64,000 nt of DNA from Heligmosomoides polygyrus polygyrus (taxonomy: Eukaryota > Nematoda > Chromadorea > Rhabditida > Heligmosomidae), in the NCBI GenBank assembly GCA_947396885.1, contig OX377206.1:5904658-5968657 (forward strand), given 5' to 3'. The notes below the pieces were generated by a model that was not told the DNA's origin, did not search any database, and saw only the letters and a list, made by a program, of their open reading frames with translations. A program made the position numbers and the translations under genes. Position 1 is the first letter of the stretch; each line of letters begins with the position of its first letter. Positions 4,549 to 39,900 of the stretch are shown in pieces.

Positions 4549-4903
4549 TTATTTCAGCCAGCGACCAGCTCCCACCTAGAAAAAATTCTGACAAAAGATG
4601 GCGGTCATTATTGAGATCTGAATGTGTGATGAATAATGTTTACCTCTTTCGTGGTTTCACAGACTTTACGAGCGACGATCGGAATCACATCGTCGTCGTC
4701 GTCGTCGATAACGTTTTCTGCGTATTTGGCATTTTTTCCTAGAATTCATTGGTAAATTTGCCTGTTAGGTGGACATAAATCGAAAGGACCCAAGTAACAA
4801 GAAATTTAATGAAAAAATAACAAATCTAAACTGAAAATGCAGGTGCTGTATCGCAGCGCGACTCACCTTGCTTATATTTTGCCATATAATCGCCAACACG
4901 GAT
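4549..4903 (-). CDS. 3' end of an unrecognised gene (three terminal exons)
   Basis: Three short minus-strand exons fit in phase. Exon one is 4903-4867 (acceptor TTTTTCAG, donor GTGAGTC, 37 nt). Exon two is 4738-4644 (acceptor AATTCTAG, donor GTAAAC, 95 nt). The last is 4575-4549 (acceptor TTTTTTCTAG, ending in TAA). The frame reads RVGDYMAKYKQ, then NAKYAENV, a run of six Asp, VIPIVARKVCETTKE, and a C-terminus VGAGRWLK. An AATAAA overlaps the stop (CTGAAATAAAA), a credible polyadenylation signal. The family is not recognised; the acidic run is the only distinctive feature. The exon upstream of 4903 should end in phase 0 but could not be placed, so the protein is incomplete. Phase agreement across two introns is the main argument that this is real. 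Confidence 0.5.
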
Positions 4904-5750
4904 CTGAAAAACCAACGGCAGTAATCAGACGACAACAGAAGAGGACAGGGCATGACGATGACGCTCGAAAAGCAGCAACGAACAAATAGGACGAGAACGT
5001 GACGACGATATCATGAATGAGTGCGTGAAGGGAGCATGTGGCCGACTTGACGTCATCTCTAACGTGGCCGCCGTCGCGTCACGAATATCCCCCGTCCCGT
5101 CTTCTGAATGAGGCGCGACGCGAACACGCAACGCCGCCTGCACGGCCACCATCCGTCGATAAGCAGAAGCTGGCTGGCTGGCTCCAGTGACCGCCGAGAG
5201 TGTTCACGTGTCGACGAGACCCGCTAGAAGACCGCGAAGCTCGAATTCTTCGACGGCGACGGCGCCCTTGAGTGCCGTCGTCGTCGTCAATATGTATGCA
5301 ATGAAAACCTGTGCCTTGCACGCTTCGTTGAATTACGGCTTTTGAACGGGTAGGTTATTCCCTCGTTGAATGCGATGAAACCCCTATACGATGCTTGGAA
5401 TGCCTACAGGAGGTAATTTCCTACAAAGATTCAGAAATCGCATTGGTTCTTCGTCTCCGTTTCTGACTACGGAATGAGGAGTGGTGAAATCTTTAATCAC
5501 GGATTTGAGAAAAATGCTAAATAGAATAGAATGGTGCGTTATTTATACTACCAGACGTTCAACGGCCTAGCGGCCGCCAAACGTCTGATTGGGGGCTTCG
5601 CCCCCAAACCCTGAAACCCTGAAAAACTTCTTTACACAGACGCATACCATGCTGATTCGGTTTGCTCATGTCCGAAACCTTCTGTGATTGTGATACAGCT
5701 GTTTCATATAACTGCTCTCTTGAAATGAAGTCCCCAATATAGTCATCACT
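4904..5750. other. No gene assigned; GC-rich stretch
   Basis: Upstream of the exons at 4549-4903 the minus strand has several overlapping open frames (4925-5321) rich in Arg and Ser, with a CGTCGTCGTC run. Base composition explains them. It could contain the promoter or 5' exons of that gene, but no splice-supported exon was found. A small hairpin lies at 5590-5608 (GGGGGCTTCGCCCCC). Confidence 0.3.
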
Positions 5751-9059: not shown

Positions 9060-9366
9060 CTCCTCAATGCTTCCCGTCTTGGCGACATGTACCGGAATGT
9101 TTTGGGGCGTCGCGGGATACTGAGATCGCGTCATGTACTTGTCCAGAGTATCGCAAAGCTGATTTACTCGCCAGTGCAAAAGCAAATTATACAAGGACAA
9201 GTGCGCCTAACGGCGTGCCTCGCACTTGCGCGCTTCGCGCGACTGTGTAGAAGCACTGACCTATGGAAAGTAGTTTTTGTAAAACATAAAATTCGCTAGC
9301 ATCTTGGACTTGGTGCGTACTTTATCGGCATCAAGCCCTTCACCACTTCGGTACATTCATCATAGG
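9060..9366. repeat. Dispersed repeat fragments left of the LTR element
   Basis: The block GGGATACTGAGATCGCGTCATG at 9114 recurs as a tandem pair at 18810-18980. The block CCTAACGGCGTGCCTCGCACTTG (9208) recurs at 62786. A poly-C tract lies at 9049-9061. Confidence 0.5.
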
Positions 9367-9867
9367 TGTCATGAACATTGAGTTCATGATGTCAGACTTT
9401 GAACTCAATCGCTCAACTCCGCCCACTTGTGAGCGGATAAGAGCGGATCGCTCTGGCGATCGGGGTTCTGCGGCTTCTTCTTCGGCTTCTTCCCTGACCG
9501 CTCCCTCGGGCTCGCTCCTCCCGTTCGTCCGTCATCGTCGGTCGAGTCCAGCCACACGTTCCGTCAGGGATACAGCAGAGCGAGCAGCTCGAGTATAGCT
9601 GCCGGTCGGCGGACTCGCCGAGACTCAAGGGACTATGTCCTAATGTCAAGACTCAACCCAAGCTTCAGTAAGGTCCAGATTCAGAACTCAAGTAGAAACT
9701 TCAAGAAAATTAGCTAGGTTAGGATGTTCGGAGACTTGGTTGTAGTTGTAGCTTAATTGGTCAAATCACTGGTTGTAGATTAGTCGTAAATAAATATGTA
9801 TGAAACTAAAGTCTATTTAAATGAACTACCAAACTTTTACATTTGGGAAGTGATGCAGCCCAAAACA
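9367..9867 (+). repeat. 5' LTR of the BEL/Pao element
   Basis: Begins TGTCATGAAC and ends CCCAAAACA, followed directly by the primer binding site. An AATAAA lies at 9789-9794. About 97.8% identical to the 3' LTR by eye. Confidence 0.93.
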
Positions 9868-9881
9868 TGGTGCATCGGCCG
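9868..9881 (+). other. Primer binding site for tRNA-Gly(GCC)
   Basis: TGGTGCATCGGCCG directly after the LTR is complementary to the 3' terminal 14 nt, including CCA, of the tRNA-Gly whose full copy lies at 14027-14097. Confidence 0.9.
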
Positions 9882-11155: not shown

Positions 11156-13272
11156 ATGTCGCAGAAACCTTTCATCCTGAAAAACGTCAAACAAAAGTTC
11201 ACTCGCAACCTCAATGCTCTACTCAATCTGCTCCAAGAAGCTGAAGAATTCAGGGAACCTTGGAACTTCCCTACTCAAGTTCAAGAAATGGACGTCTTTC
11301 TAGTTTCAAAGAAACGAATCATTATAAATCTAATCTCAAAACTGCAACAACAGAAGAAATCAGCGACTACTACGCCACGTGTAATCAAGTCATCCACGAC
11401 CTTATCCAAGAAGAAAAAGCAGGCATAGAAGATCAGTTTGACACGTTTGACACCTATTGGTCAGAGAAAAAGGGAGATGATCTACTCAATCAATCCGATG
11501 ACGTGGAACGAAAACTGGAAAAGAGACTAATAGAACTTGAGTGCCAAGAGGCAAGTCTCAAGCACGAACTTACGCGGGACAGAAGCGAATCAGATCCAAG
11601 TCAACATCCATCGATAAACCCTCAAGCACCTGCTTCAACCAATTCATGTATAATGGAGAGACGTCTAATGGGTAATGAGCTCAAGATACCAGATTTCTAT
11701 GGCAACCCGTCAGAGTTTGCCTCATTTTGGGAACTATTCGAGGAATTAGTTCACAAGCAACCTTACCCAAACATCGAGAAGTTGTCCATATTAATCAACT
11801 GCTGTAAGGGAGATGCAGCAAGGACACTTCAGATGATTCCAAGAACTGGAGAATCTTACGACAGGGCAGTTACTCAACTCAAAAACCAATGTCTTGGTCC
11901 AAGGCGAATCACAATGCAAATGATACGCCAACTTAAAACTATGAAACAGTGTCAAGACGATCATCGGTCTCTAAGAAACAATCTTAGTGATGTTCAAGCA
12001 ATTATAGCCACCTTAGAGAAACAAGGCGAAGCCGTCAACACTACTAATATGAGAAGCATGGTCCTAGACACGTTCTCAAAAAGCATGCAAGATGAAATGG
12101 CCAAAAGGGAATTCGATGCAGGCACCGTATGGACAATGGCAGACTTGCTGGATAACTTGTCCGTTGCAGTGAAACGCAAAGAACATGTTGATAGTCTCAG
12201 AGAAAGCCATCAAGATGAACACTCAATCTTTCACTCGAGCACAACAGTAGTACCCACACCACATTGCACAGGATGTGGTAGCCAACACAAATTCCAATAT
12301 TGCGACAAGTATCAAACCATCGTTCAGAAGATTGGACGTCTACGCGAACTTAATGCTTGTTGGAAATGTTTCAGTTGTAGACACCATACAGCATTTTGCC
12401 GCAAACAAAACTGCCCATATTGCGGTGGTCTCCACAATCTAATTATCTGCCGAAAACGTTCAAGGATTCCGAACGAAAGAGGCTTCAACCGCTTCCGGCA
12501 ACGAGAAGGTAGTCCCTTTCAAAGACGACGAGGTTATACCTCAAGCTATTCAAAACGTAATAGCCATTTTCCAGGACCCATATTCAGAAGTAGAAGTTAC
12601 TCTCCAAATAGCAGAAGTTATTCTTCAAATTATCCAACCCGCAGAAATAGGAATTCTAACTACAGTAGAAGGAACGAGCAATCACCGCAACGAACTCCAA
12701 TAGTGTCGCCTACGAGAACTTCACCAAACAGAAGCACAATTAAACGCTCTCCTTCCCCTCGACGAGCTCCCGAACAGCAACACCGTGTTCGGTTCCGCCA
12801 ATCGCCAACTCTTCAAAGGAGATCCTTTGAGAATGTTACGGTCAACTTACAGATTCAAAACGATGGTGTATTAGCAAACATTAATAACAAAATCACAAGT
12901 GGTCCTTCAAACAACGAATACGTACGCCTTATGGTAGTGCCAACTGAAATACAGTCTCCAAAAACCAAGAAAAAGGAGACAGTGTTCGCACTTTTGGACT
13001 CCGCTTCAGATCAGTCCTTCGTATCTACATCGCTCGTCAAAAGAATGAACCTCTCAATTCAAAACGAATCCATAATTGTGGTAAACACGTTCGGCGGAAA
13101 GGCTGAGAAGAAGAGGGTAAAGAGAATTGTTACACCTCTTTACAACAAGGAAGGTGACCGTATTATGTTTGAACTCCTAACCTACGAAAAATCACATTTC
13201 CACTCCGACTGGGATACATTACTCCAGAAGACGAAGCCTACTTACATCAAAACCTTTCCAATGAGGAAATAA
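11156..13272 (+). pseudogene. gag-protease of the BEL/Pao element (frameshifted)
   Basis: The gag starts at ATG 11156 in one frame. Sequence sense passes to the frame of 11260-13272 near 11340-11360 (net -1). The long frame has a coiled N-terminal region, a Gag domain of the DUF1759 type (about residues 130-310, with IPDFYGNPSEFASFWELFE), a row of Cys/His knuckles (CTGCGSQHKFQYC, CWKCFSCRHHTAFC, CPYCGGLHNLIIC), a Ser/Arg-rich basic linker (about residues 405-530) and an aspartic protease motif LLDSASDQSFV near residue 606. Near 13190-13200 the sense leaves this frame again (net -1) and continues in the pol frame, so the stop at 13270 is not the natural end. The two same-direction shifts could be decay or programmed frameshifting. 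The protein would package RNA and mature the polyprotein. Confidence 0.85.
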
Positions 13273-14023
13273 AATGGATTTCACAAGCAGCAAACGGAAC
13301 TGTGATACCAGAAATCCTAATCGAAATGGACTATTACAACGCAGTGATGAGGCTGCACGAACCTGTTATTCAACTTCCATCCGGATTCCTCATTACGTCG
13401 ACATTCTTCGGTCCAGTGATATCCGGAGTGCCCCATGATAGTGAAAAGCAATTTGAAGAAGACAATTTCTACAAACGTCTAGTACACACCTTCTGTATAT
13501 CCGGCTCATGTAACAATCATTTCGACATTCCAGATCTTTGGAAATTATCAACTACCGGAATTGAAGATTCAAACAATGATGCAGAAATTAATAGCCAGAC
13601 TGTGGCACAGTTTTACCCAACCGTTCAATTCCAAAATAATAAGATATTTGTACAATTCCCTTGGAAACCTAATAAATACCAACTAGCTAATAACTAAAAC
13701 CTCGCTTTAAGTAGACTACATCAACTCTCAAAGATGAAGGAGCGCAGTCCTCAATGTTGGACTGAATACTGCTCCATAATAGAAGAACAATTGTTGAAGA
13801 ACTTTATCGAGGACGCCCCTCGCTTTCAACAAATCAGCGGCGACAATAATGCGCCATGTTATTATATTCCACACCAGGCAGTAATAAAATCGAGTAGCTC
13901 AACCACTAAGACTCGAATAGTCTTTGATGCTTCTTCCAAAATGAAAGGAGAACTAAGCCTGAATGATGTGATATATCAGGGTCCACTTATACTGCCAAAC
14001 TTATGTGGAGTTGTGGAGAAACA
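13200..14023 (+). pseudogene. pol fragment: protease/RT linker and RT start, truncated
   Basis: The frame starting near 13200 reads PLRLGYITPEDEAYLHQNLS, then the typical Pao spacer (LWKLSTTGIED, VQFPWKPNKY). It has an in-frame TAA at 13695-13697 and continues as LALSRLHQLSKMKERSP. Then come EEQLLKNFIEDAPR, YYIPHQAVIKSSSSTTKTRI and the VFDASSKMKGELSLND motif that opens the Pao reverse transcriptase. It ends at GPLILPNLCGVVE, where foreign sequence (the tRNA copy) begins. The palm with YxDD, RNase H and integrase are all missing. Confidence 0.85.
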
Positions 14024-14026
14024 TGG

Positions 14027-14097
14027 TGCATCGGCCGGGAATCGAACCCGGGCCGCCCGCGTGGCAGGCGAGCATTCTACCACTGAACCACCGATGC
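14027..14097 (-). tRNA. tRNA-Gly(GCC): tRNA-Gly(GCC) sequence, retro-copied into the element
   Basis: Read on the minus strand this is a perfect 71-nt tRNA-Gly: acceptor GCATCGG/CCGATGC, D arm TTCAGTGGTAGAA, anticodon loop CTGCCAC (anticodon GCC), T arm GGGTTCGATTCCC. It is followed by CCA (TGG at 14024-14026 on plus). Nuclear tRNA genes do not encode CCA, and the same tRNA primes this element, so it is most likely a cDNA of the primer tRNA trapped at a deletion junction rather than an ordinary gene. Its A and B boxes are intact, so transcription cannot be excluded. Confidence 0.88.
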
Positions 14098-14809
14098 AAT
14101 TCATTTGGATCCAAAAACCATTCAAATGGCACAAAAGATAACAGATTTCAACTGCTACATTCTACCAATGAATTTGGCAGGTTGTTATAACTGTATCAAA
14201 GGCGCTGTGGCATCAATACGATGCACAGCAGATGTCCAACAGGCGACCGCGCAAGTCGAATGCGGACTACGACAATTCGTGCTCACATGCACACGAGAAG
14301 GTACTCAAGATGAAATCAAGCTGTTTTTCAATAGAGCACGCGTAAAAGAACAATGTCGAGCGCAATGTGGTACACAGACCACAGTATTCGAACTAGAAGG
14401 GACACTCCACTACGTCAACGGCATTAAACCGCTGTGGAAATTCTCAAAGCTGTGGGACAACAGAACCCAAGAAGAAAGTGTGTTCGATGGAGACTGGGAT
14501 TTTCCAGACATTGCACATTTTCTTGAAATATGTAAAAGATTCTACTTGTATACCATAATTGTTCTCATGACACTCTCAAGCGCAATCCTTATCAGCGCAG
14601 TCTATCTCTGCGCAGGCAAAACAAAACGATCATCTCAAGCTTCGATAGCCTCCAACCTTATAGTTGGCTTCCTACCAGCAGCGCCAATGCTGCTTCCAGC
14701 TTTCTTATTGAGACAATTTATCAAACTCATCAAATCTTTTGTACGTATACCACTCCGCGTAATGCTCTGCCTCCTCAAACTTTTACTCAAGAACAGTTGC
14801 CTAAATTAA
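14098..14809 (+). pseudogene. env-like glycoprotein remnant (C-terminal part)
   Basis: Open frame of 234 codons from 14105. The first part is Cys-rich with regularly spaced cysteines (CYNCIKGAV, VECGLRQFVL, CRAQCGTQ), a pattern like the C-terminal domain of phlebovirus-type Gc (class II fusion) glycoproteins found as env in some nematode BEL/Pao elements. One strong membrane segment lies at about residues 146-170, with a second hydrophobic stretch at about 184-205 and a short basic tail. The N-terminal two thirds of an env protein is missing, removed by the deletion that also took RT, RNase H and integrase. The Gc assignment is by spacing only. Not functional. Confidence 0.6.
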
Positions 14810-15033: not shown

Positions 15034-15877
15034 ATGTCCGACGAGTCTCCGCGCAGTTCCAGCCAAAAGGCTGAAGGAGAGAACGCCAAGTCGGAAGAAT
15101 CTTCTGCTGACGTTCGCCCGTCAGCAATTGCAGCACTGGTGAAGATGAATGCGAAAATGGAACAAGTCAAATCCAAGGTAGAGGAAATACCGGCACTCAA
15201 GAAATCAATAGAAGACATTCAAGTAAGTAAACTAACATATAATCAAAAAATAGAAAATAAGAAAAAAAGAATTTAGTACGCGCCAACAATCTAAAATTTT
15301 TTAAGCACGAAAAACCACAACAAGGCGAATCATCTAAAACCTCTAGCAAGTCACCACACAAAAAAAGAAAAACGGAGGTGAATATAAAATCGAAGTAATA
15401 TCAAATAGTATGAACAAATAACAAAACCCTCAATATATTCTTTAGGAGCTGCTCGACGCAATAGACGAACGAATGGCTCACATGAACGATCAAATCGAGC
15501 AAACATTGGACGGCATGGAACAAATCTACAACAAGCAGGGAGACATCATCCGTCAACTCGAGGAAGCAAACCAACTCAACCGTCAACGCCGCTCTCCATC
15601 ACCAGGTCCAAGTAATAGACGTGTGTTTGACTCCCGCGCTTGTGCCTTTTGCGATGGCGACCATTACGCGTGTGACTGCACTGTCTACACTCGTCTTATG
15701 GAGCGTAAAAAACGCATCATCGCAAGAAATCGCTGCGAGAGATGCCTTTTGCTCGCAAATCACCTCACCACTTCTTGCAAGAGAGAAACTATTTGCTTCT
15801 ACTGTAAAACTGCCGGTCGCGAAGAAGAAATGAAAAAACACAATAGCGCGTTTTGTACTCACAAATTCAAAATGTAA
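15034..15877 (+). CDS. Spliced accessory ORF of the retroelement, coiled coil plus Cys/His knuckles
   Basis: Two exons in phase: 15034-15222 (63 codons) and 15446-15877, joined across a 223-bp intron with donor GTAAGTAA and acceptor ATTCTTTAG; 206 residues in all. The ATG lies six bases after a strong acceptor (TATTTTAG, 15028), as expected for an SL trans-spliced or internally spliced transcript. Residues 1-120 are charged with heptad-like spacing (KMNAKMEQVKSKVEE; then HMNDQIEQTLDGMEQIYNK). The C-terminal 90 residues hold three Cys-rich units (CAFCDGDHYACDC, CERCLLLANHLTTSC, CFYCKTAGREEE...HNSAFC), similar in style to the gag knuckles. It is probably an RNA-binding, gag-like accessory protein. 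It lacks internal stops, unlike gag and pol of the same copy. Confidence 0.7.
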
Positions 15878-16662: not shown

Positions 16663-17163
16663 TGTCATGAACTTTGAGTTCATGATGTCAGACTTTGAAC
16701 TCAATCGCTCAACTCCGCCCACTTATGAGCGGATAAGAGCGGATCGCTCTGGCGATCGGGGTTCTGCGGCTTCTTTTTCGGCTTCTTCCCTGACCGCTCC
16801 CTCGGGCTCGCTCCTCCCGTTCGTCCGTCATTGTCGGTCGAGTCCAGCCACACGTTCCGTCAGGGATACAGCAGAGCGGGCAGCTCGAGTCTAGCTGCCG
16901 GTCGGCGGACTCGCCGAGACTCAAGGGACTATGTCCTAATGTCAAGACTCAACCCAAGCTTCAATAAGGTCCAGATTCAAAAATCAAGTAGAAACTTCAA
17001 GACAATTAGCTAGGTTAGGATGTTCGGAGACTTGGTTGTAGTTGTAGCTTAATTGGTCAAATCACTGGTTGTAGATTAGTCGTAAATAAATATGTATGAA
17101 ACTAAAGTCTATTTAAATGAACCACCAAACTTTTACATTTGGGAAGTGATGCAGCCCAAAACA
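16663..17163 (+). repeat. 3' LTR of the BEL/Pao element
   Basis: Begins TGTCATGAAC and ends CCCAAAACA. Directly followed by the ATAGG target duplication. Confidence 0.93.
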
Positions 17164-17168
17164 ATAGG

Positions 17169-36900: not shown

Positions 36901-39900
36901 TAGAAACTAGTGCACATTTTCGTACCTTTCCTCCCAAAATATGGATCCACCGTATTAAGAGTGACGTAATCCAACTGACTATGTATGAACAGAGAAGACT
37001 TGCCCAGAGGCACAGGACAGTAGTAGGTATAAGCGCGCTCTAATGGTGATGGGTTGTAGTGCAAAGCGGTTGCGGCGCGGCAGTCAAGAGTGTGGGATAG
37101 TGTACATCTCTGGACTATAGCGAGGTTCCGTAACATCGCTGAAACTTTTCTCAGATCTGTGGAGCGAATTTCGTGCCGAGACACTGCGGCACGAAATTCG
37201 TTTTTTAGGAACGGCATTTCAGGATATGTCGCGTATAGCTTACCAGGATGCTATCTCAACGGTAGGTCGGAACGGCCCAAGTCTTGTATATGGGCAGAAT
37301 CGCTTCTCCCTGAAGAGTAACAAAATGCAGGTATCTTGACCCCAATACAACTCTGCGAAGAGTTAGGGGCGACGGAAGTCGGGTGTTGGCGGCATGTTGA
37401 TTCACGTGCTCCGCAGCTGACGGGTGCGCGCAGGATGAGGGCTGGTATTATGGTTCACCGCGGTGCACAGGTGGCGTAGTAGGGAGGAACCCGGACTCGT
37501 GAGCTAGTGGTCGGGAGTTCGGATCCCGGAGACTGCGCTTCTTTTGCACTTTTGCAAAATCGATGTTTATCATATAGGTGATCCAGTTAGGGGCATTATA
37601 GACATACGTTATATTATAGAGCAAACCTGGACATATGTTCTTCAGCCAGACCTTGTTCCTCGGCGGATGCGCTGCCGCGGTCTTTCATAGAACGTAGAAC
37701 ACTTCCCTTATCGCCATGTACTTTTTGTCACTGCCCTCCGTAATGTAGGATGAAGACTGGGTCGAAGAACGGGCTGGAGCATAGAACAGTTTAGCACCCC
37801 TCATTATTTAGCTGTTAGATTCCTTTTAGGATACATTTCAAGGGCCGTCTTATGGACGGCTATCAATGTTTGTATTTTTCAGTGGGAGGTATCTACACAG
37901 TACTACGCACAAAAGCGCCAATCTCCACGGAAGAGTTGGGCGATCAGTACTGCATGCTTGGACCGTACAATGAGGATCGTGTCAAACTTGAGGTAGCGGT
38001 CTAGTTATTTTAATTCTCTAGTTTTACTTGTAACCCCAGACTTTTTTCACGAGTTTTCATATTCTTCTTCTGTTTTTAGCAAGTTTAAGGGGAAAAGTTT
38101 TCATTTTTTTTTTGGCGAAGATGAGCTTATTTGTTGGGAGCTTTAGTGAAAGAAATGAGCGGTAAAGAAACTGTATCCCCTGCATAACTTGTCGCCCTTT
38201 TGATCACCGAGTTGCTCAACAGAGTCCCAACCAAGTCTCCAGTTGTTCCTGACGCGTGCCAGAGTGCTCCAATGGATCCTCCTCGCTCGAAAGACACGAA
38301 GGGATTGTATATAGTATCGTTCGTTCACACGGCGCCGGTGGTGTAATGGCAGAGAACATTCCTGCCCGGTTGGCGGGTGGTGTGCGTTCGAGTCCTACCT
38401 GGCGCTAGTTTTGATCGCAGAAACACATTGTCATAACTGCGTCGAGCTGTGGGTGTCCATCTGTTCTTTTGACATACAGCGGAATCTCGTCAGTGACGGT
38501 TCTCGTCCAGCGGCTGTCTCTGAAGCGCGTTACACGGCCGGCCCACCTAATTTTCGATGGCTTGACTCCAATCGACAAAGCTCAGAACTCGGACAAAAAG
38601 AGTCGCGGTCTCTGAAAACTTCTACTGCGTCTTGTAGCTAGGGCTGCTAGCAGCACCAGTGTTGGCTAAGTTCATTTCATTTCAGTTGGGCGGCCGTAAC
38701 GCAGTGGGTAAAGTCATCGGCTCAATTACACCCGAGATCACTTCATGGTTCGATCACCTAGGTCTACTAAACTTTATATCCTTCAGGAGTCGGGATATCG
38801 GTAAGGATAAGGATAAAGGACGGCGTTATTCAATTCCCTTTGGGATGCGCCACGAATTCTTTTTCTACGGGAAGTCGTGGAGGCGAGTTGAATGCGTATT
38901 TCGCCATACAATGAATGACTTCTGGTGGCCAGCAGATGAAAAATTCAGCGCTTTATCCTTTCCAGACAAGTCTGGTACCAATTCACCGACCCCGGAGGGA
39001 TGGAAGGCTTGGTTGGCCTGGGCGGGAAATCCGAACCAGGAACCTGTTATCGGGTGCAGGCGCCTCCTCCGACTGCGCTTCACGCTCCCTCAGGATATCG
39101 GTACCGATCTTAACTGGGGCGTTGGCAAAATTACGCATCCAGGTTGCCTCCACAAGGCGAAGGCCTATAGTAGAAGGCGTGACTATGCCAGTCGTCCGAT
39201 GTGAACTGTCGCTAGACGTAGCATCTGTGGACCGTCGTTGTCGTTGCGGTCCGCGCAGCGTTCAGCGCAGTAAGGGCTTTTAGAACAGGGAGTATAAGCG
39301 AAAAGGCTGTCTGGATCTTCATACCAATTGCGCCTTGAGAATTGTGAAGTAATGAATTGAGTACGCCCAGTCGGCCACGGTTTCTAGCCCTGTATCGTCG
39401 CACGAAGATGCTCTTATCTAGACCGCGTGCACTTCTGCAACATGCTAGTGGTGACGTTTGCGTGTCCTTTGCATATCGCACGTATTCCCACGGAAAAATG
39501 ATTCGGGCCTGATAGTCGGTCGTAAAAACCCGTTACGAAATGAAGGCTCGGGAAGAAATACAGAAGCATTCCTTTATTCTGTTCAGGTAGAGATACTGGA
39601 ACCGGACAATGCTGCAATGAAGTATGCACTGGATCATGCAAGAGAAACTGGTTTCAAGGTTGGTTGAGTCTTCAAGTTTCTTGAAGCGTTTTTTTTTTGT
39701 TGCTCGTTACGTATAGCTTCTGTGAGACCAGGCGTGACTAATCTCAGTGCATGTGAAGCAAACGTCGTCTCATTCCTGGTGGTTTTGTTGAATTCAGTCT
39801 TTCGAAGAAGGAATGATGTTGGAAAACATGGTTAGCTCTAGGTATATAGTACCCAGTATGTTAGCGGTGGAGGAGTAGATGTATTTTGTTCACTGCAATA

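Follow-up and report, generated by a model that had tools for sequence, protein, structure and literature searches.

In nematodes, BEL/Pao elements with a phlebovirus-like env are known (Cer and Tas elements), and the CCA end of a tRNA is added after transcription. Concerning the fate of the primer tRNA in reverse transcription, the relevant passages of a review describe that plus-strand copying ends after 18 nt when A58 is modified and proceeds to the 5' end on an unmodified tRNA; according to them, solely products stopped at A58, 55 or 54 are functional templates (PMC13191261). For HIV-1 with unmodified tRNA-Lys3, the same passages describe the product P1, a plus-strand strong-stop DNA over the whole primer tRNA, which was obtained in vitro and in m1A58-methyltransferase-mutant cells and is ranked as inactive (PMC13191261). 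A second point of comparison is Ty1, for which the passages on primer annealing in PMC5454406 describe extended primer-template pairing via the boxes 0, 1 and 2.1.

The locus described here resembles P1 in the copying past A58 to the 5' end of the tRNA, which spoils the second transfer guided by the primer binding site (PBS), as set out for P1 in the passages mentioned (PMC13191261). In contrast to P1, chromosomal copies were found at many loci, several of them joined to internal sites. Probably, the element's own primer tRNA was copied whole into DNA during aberrant reverse transcription, and the resulting end was joined to an internal site.

The window, i.e. the whole analysed stretch of 64,000 nucleotides from Heligmosomoides polygyrus polygyrus, contains an LTR element with the following parts:

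9362..9366, no strand: left copy of the target duplication ATAGG, 5 bp, flanking the 5' LTR
9367..9867, plus strand: 5' LTR (TGTCATG...AAAACA), 501 bp; 11 differences between the two LTRs
9868..9881, plus strand: PBS TGGTGCATCGGCCG, 14 nt, complement of the tRNA-Gly 3' end including CCA
11245..13272, plus strand: gag and protease reading frame (PF03564 DUF1759, E 7e-16; Asp_protease_2 weak, below its cut-off)
13698..14012, plus strand: final pol stretch collinear with relatives (N-terminal reverse transcriptase, RT), from alignment to relatives; fragment without Pfam match
14098..14809, plus strand: 3' part of env, resuming after the tRNA (PF19019 Phlebo_G2_C, E 8e-6, barely passing its Pfam cut-off; a 97% copy lacks the tRNA)
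16663..17163, plus strand: 3' LTR, 501 bp, paired with the 5' LTR
17164..17168, no strand: right copy of the target duplication ATAGG, 5 bp, flanking the 3' LTR

Since gag comprises DUF1759 and the env remnant matches Phlebo_G2_C, the element is assigned to the BEL/Pao type with a phlebovirus-like env. The LTR pair, the short target duplication and the tRNA primer site expected for such an element are present, and the truncated RT fragment, itself without Pfam match, is continued in the aligned relatives by RT-like frames. The gag DUF1759, the tRNA-Gly PBS, the phlebovirus-like env piece, the LTRs and the 5-bp duplication are shared with BEL/Pao elements of the Cer/Tas type, whereas in the copy of the window most of pol and env is missing and its own primer tRNA is present. 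The preliminary description of this DNA had proposed that the inserted tRNA matches the PBS at 9868 and that the element is framed by a proper target duplication; both are borne out by the 14-nt match and by ATAGG on either side. With at most one mismatch, the PBS sequence occurred at two places in the whole window, the PBS and the inserted tRNA (shuffle mean 0.02). The element contains a second nucleocapsid-like frame, Cys/His-rich and without Pfam match, 3' of the env remnant (15446-15877). Elsewhere in the window, ARAGORN calls a tRNA-Thr with GGT anticodon (38331-38407), which to our knowledge is unusual in animals.

The tRNA-Gly(GCC) was located by ARAGORN at 14024-14097 on the minus strand, where it joins pol to env. 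The joint region comprises the following parts:

14013..14021, plus strand: 9-nt pol scrap GTGGAGAAA, in relatives located 42 nt further downstream
14022..14023, plus strand: CA fitting the U5 end; the preceding AAA is common to pol and U5
14024..14026, minus strand: CCA of the mature tRNA (TGG on the plus strand), from sequence reading and ARAGORN
14027..14097, minus strand: tRNA-Gly(GCC) body, full length, 71 nt (ARAGORN; perfect matches elsewhere in the genome)

The antisense tRNA with CCA was thus described correctly before. It does not sit exactly where pol stops, as had been claimed, since pol ends at 14012 and is followed by the scrap and CA. The presence of the CCA, the identity with the tRNA that fits the PBS, and the orientation of the tRNA 3' end towards the sequence extended from it are the features of a primer-tRNA cDNA, and a mature primer-tRNA copy with CCA at the pol-env joint is confirmed.

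At the left joint, the window reads GTT, GTGGAGAAA, CA, TGG, while the closest two pol relatives (L041, L042) read GTT, 42 nt, GTGGAGAAA or GAGGAGAAA, and then GC. The U5 end of the element reads CCAAAACA followed by TGG, which is fitted by the CA before the tRNA. The AAACA at 14019-14023 is indeed equal to the LTR end, as noted before. Since 14013-14021 correspond to pol from 42 nt downstream, the AAA also belongs to pol and only the CA points to U5; the microhomology between pol and U5 therefore comprises AAA and not AAACA. At the right joint, the window shows GATGC and then AATTCATTTGG, compared to CTAGC and then AATTCATTTGG in the 97% env copy (C52:72873861), and the GC at 14096-14097 is common to the tRNA end and env.

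For comparison of the pol end, 20 loci (L040-L059) were fetched, one of which was the window itself. In all 18 relatives with a match at the site pol continues without tRNA, and one further relative (L043) gave no match. The 97% env copy, read at the env side only, also lacks the tRNA. A full-length relative carrying the tRNA at the same site, named beforehand as counter-evidence, was hence not found among these loci. In two relatives (C1:84.8 Mb, C27:48.5 Mb), 4746 nt separate the pol point from the env point; the distance is about 4.8 kb in four others (C60:34.4, C1:73.3, C52:86.9 and C13:59.7 Mb), whose env matches begin further inside env, at query base 44. One relative showed a distance of about 9.1 kb (C13:27.3 Mb), and the closest two (C39) only about 1.5 and 1.8 kb, which seem to result from losses of their own.

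The genome search covered 656 Mb, including several contigs near 100 Mb. A 161-nt query across both joints yielded 47 matches, which is a lower bound since 40 of 193 candidates were scored. Among these 47 scored matches no second copy of the junction was observed; the window alone aligned across both joints, so that neither renewed packaging of the deleted form nor a mobile family of it, as had been considered, is supported. The complement of CCA was present in 36 of the 47 tRNA-Gly matches, in one of them mutated to TCG (L014). The other 11 were gene-like copies, of which seven form a tandem array on C27; all 11 lack the CCA and show other bases at this position, and most have a T-run after the body. 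tRNA-Gly genes encoding the CCA, a possibility raised before, were accordingly not encountered among these matches. The locus L038 (C27:6983817-6986907) is an array of tRNA-Gly genes in tandem with 169-bp spacing and without CCA.

These data also bear on the insertion of a tRNA gene or a tRNA-derived SINE into the element. It would agree with the intact tRNA, whose internal promoter sequence is presumably kept judging from the perfect match. Against it, the CCA is present, while none of the 11 gene-like copies has one and most carry the T-run; moreover, SINE body, tail and target duplication are absent, the flanks being directly pol and env. This origin is extremely improbable, and it was rejected on account of the CCA and the missing tail and duplication. 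The tRNA pseudogenes of Yarrowia, considered as a parallel, are unrelated as far as the respective passages of PMC5014426 describe them.

A 31-nt probe reaching past A58 matched 134 places genome-wide with at most two mismatches, and its reversed version, used as a control, gave no match. Of the 134 places 100 were listed; 54 of these were exact and 94 showed an intact TGG; the remaining 34 may include gene-like copies, as the flank of L019 (AGT) passes at two mismatches. A control probe for tRNA-Lys gave no matches, although exact gene bodies would have passed at the three mismatches allowed; its sequence therefore does not fit this genome, and the result carries no weight as a control. The oriented set comprised 35 loci including the window, and L012 contains a 36th copy. 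The tRNA copy measured 74 nt in 23 of the 35 loci, 73 in four, 72 in three and 71 in five, with long copies over-represented because the loci were the best-scoring matches. The two bases before TGG were CA in 19 and TA in seven of the 35. The event in the window belongs to this genome-wide class of CCA-bearing tRNA-Gly copies, which together with the CCA supports the earlier proposal that the whole primer tRNA was copied. No report of such a genomic class was found among the open-licence papers of PubMed Central that were searched.

Besides the window, 34 loci were inspected; 17 have a left flank that could be tied to an LTR end by a shared flank, a repeat or a U5 hairpin, and the other 17 showed no such tie. 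Left flanks common up to TGG with unrelated right flanks were observed for L010/L020, L006/L023, L002/L072, L016/L069 and L060/L061, and the left flank of L008 is 75% like the end of L060/L061. L068 contains a 405-bp direct repeat, cut by the locus end; it is compatible with a pair of LTRs in which the tRNA occupies the place of the PBS. The left flanks of L007, L009, L022 and L064 show the U5 hairpin. Among the loci without such a tie, L066 and L067 are near-identical on both sides of the tRNA. In L014, the left flank matches the window LTR at its start and end, and the layout is LTR, tRNA, middle of the G2 domain.

The form in L014 leads to the main rival explanation, a two-step retroelement origin. 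Here, a deletion form of LTR, full tRNA and env would have arisen first; in a later cycle its RNA would have recombined with full-length RNA, by a minus-strand switch from U5 to pol five bases past the tRNA. L014, with its related LTR, shows that the LTR-tRNA-env form exists, and template switching between co-packaged RNAs is established in retroviruses. On the other hand, this path requires a switch no more than 5 nt away from the tRNA despite the long R-U5 available, and an LTR-tRNA-env copy with the env breakpoint of the window was not seen among the scored matches. In view of both sides, the two-step path is unlikely.

Of the ORFs flanking the tRNA, 20 were scanned for domains; that of L061 lies on its left side, the other 19 on its right side. 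A sense-strand retroelement domain was determined in nine of them:

L004 and L005, sense: RVT_1, below the Pfam cut-off
L009, sense: Phlebovirus_G1, below the Pfam cut-off
L013, sense: DUF5641
L014 and L068, sense: Phlebovirus_G2
L021, sense: DUF1759, with a leader between tRNA and frame
L060, sense: integrase domains
L065, sense: protease, below the Pfam cut-off

With the exception of L021, the tRNA meets the retroelement frame directly in these loci (8 of 9). Antisense domains were found in L022 (env) and L069 (integrase), and L015 showed an antisense RVT_1 of non-LTR appearance; in eight of the 20 ORFs no acceptable retroelement domain was present. A DUF1993 match in L010 was taken as spurious. 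The joint of L060 has AT in common with its parent sequence.

In several loci, the sequence after the tRNA leads back to the LTR region. In L012, L071, L073 and L063 (tandem) it repeats the U5 stretch that follows a match resembling the tRNA end, as exemplified by L012 (CTGAACCACCGA). In L017 the tRNA is followed by a repeated GTGCACATTT and then a PBS, in L021 by A and a PBS, and in L003, L008, L022 and L061 by inverted flank or LTR sequence. Such re-entry and fold-back would be expected from a plus strand that ends in a full tRNA copy and re-anneals or folds back. Two further arrangements were observed. In L010 (941-1420), an LTR end and a 71-nt tRNA are followed by about 250 nt of other sequence; then comes a second copy of this 61-nt LTR end, with a 10-nt PBS. 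In L061 (about 4700-5560), the 3' part of the LTR and the tRNA lie inverted between the 5' part of the LTR and a gag-like frame, as if a tRNA-primed strong-stop piece had been joined backwards.

From the joints, the CCA and the genome-wide class we infer the following order of steps and the state of A58. The tRNA-Gly would start the minus-strand DNA at the PBS, and after 2-5 nt of U5 the nascent end would move to pol by means of the AAA microhomology. There, 9 nt of pol would be copied before a slip of 42 nt upstream, followed by copying through pol, gag, PBS, U5 and R. Later, the plus strand would traverse pol in return and continue over the entire tRNA, the normal halt at a methylated A58 being absent or passed. 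Since its 3' end would be incapable of the normal PBS transfer, it would have joined env via the 2-nt GC microhomology, giving the product 5' LTR-gag-pol-tRNA-env-3' LTR. At other loci, this failure would have had the simpler outcome of LTR, full tRNA and internal site; as pol and not U5 adjoins the tRNA in the window, one more template switch is needed here. Compared to the preliminary description, which assumed an early minus-strand switch from U5 into pol, the aberrant reverse transcription is retained, and the single jump is replaced by two, the second of 42 nt within pol. Altogether, the earlier interpretation is partly supported.

Several observations count against this explanation: an extra switch is required because the left flank in the window is pol and not an LTR end, the share of U5 is represented by two bases (CA), the joints are short (AAA, GC), and the 9-nt templated scrap fits DNA repair too. 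The eight scanned ORFs without an acceptable domain, the antisense RVT_1 of L015, the domain matches below the Pfam cut-offs, the 17 left flanks without a tie to an LTR and the 18 flanks without a strong match to the tRNA 5' end also speak against it. Break repair of a full-length copy after integration was considered as a rival; here, end joining would have introduced the 9 templated nucleotides and captured a piece of primer-tRNA cDNA. Polymerase-theta joining leaves templated inserts, which the scrap from 42 nt away resembles, and the microhomologies are short as well. However, a genome-wide class with TGG at LTR ends is not predicted by repair, and the CA beside TGG would be a matter of chance. 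A later DNA-repair origin is therefore less likely, and we regard it as quite improbable.

With aberrant reverse transcription as the preferred reading, the copies can be examined for traces of the A58 modification, a column that was chosen beforehand for its known role and tested late. A58 was unchanged in all 35 oriented copies, which showed 24 differences elsewhere. Among the 100 places listed of the 134, it was changed in four, all of them transversions. For one column out of 31, a share of four of 60 changes is not unusual (0.13), whereas a share of four of 26 transversions is (0.009). The four changed places argue against a plain absence of methylation, and some of the tRNA templates may have been methylated at A58 and misread.

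The U5 end of the element also shows complementarity to the 5' end of the tRNA, and two features were determined:

9822..9830, plus strand: U5 box TGAACTACC, 8/9 match to the complement of tRNA-Gly nt 6-14
9842..9864, plus strand: U5 hairpin, stem TTTGGG/CCCAAA, loop with GATGC, predicted for the U5 end alone

The ungapped score of the box alone is not unusual (shuffle p 0.235). The duplex predicted between the 70-nt U5 end of the window and tRNA nt 1-22 was reached by none of 300 shuffles (1 of 200 in an earlier run), compared to 94 of 300 for the pol stretch left of the window tRNA. When the 70 nt before TGG were compared with tRNA nt 1-22, 17 of 35 flanks lay at three or fewer of 300 shuffles; for nt 10-30, 24-46 and 42-58 the corresponding numbers were 0, 3 and 0. 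The 35 flanks, taken from the window LTR and 34 loci, are not all independent, and simple shuffles were used. In the other 18 flanks a strong match to the tRNA 5' end is missing. With PBS and leader included, a different fold is predicted for the U5 end. Some related LTR ends contain a hairpin with GATGC loop, with compensated stems TTGGAC/GTCCAA and TTTGGG/CCCAAA. Exact matches of 11-14 nt to the tRNA-Gly complement occur before TGG in L017, L013, L012, L015, L071, L021 and L004, where the 5' arm is matched in some cases and the anticodon arm in others; these may be boxes or relics of tRNA copies.

A short PBS with further RNA stretches complementary to the primer tRNA, as the passages in PMC5454406 describe for Ty1, is a feature in common. 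In Ty1, these passages place the boxes 3' of the PBS, matching the T and D hairpins (PMC5454406), whereas here the boxes are located in U5 and correspond to the tRNA 5' end, the pairing being predicted only. The U5 complementarity could reflect a box with a function, comparable to those of Ty1, or the remains of tRNA copies made earlier.

Full copying of the primer tRNA might be routine in this worm lineage and not an error, with a tRNA-Gly lacking an effective A58 stop and with U5 boxes that let the over-extended plus strand re-enter U5. This would amount to an alternative second strand transfer, by which primer tRNAs and fragments thereof are continually written into the elements and their LTRs. 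We consider this conceivable, if doubtful. Here, a genome keeps the full-length primer-tRNA product at many loci; in the respective passages of the review it is described from the test tube and from methylation-deficient cells (PMC13191261). Because of this, the stop, the rescue joints and a possible U5-tRNA pairing become accessible to sequence analysis. As a warning, an intact tRNA copy that carries CCA in an assembly may represent a retroelement scar and not a gene. Furthermore, the role of m1A58 as a guard of reverse transcription becomes testable in these animals.
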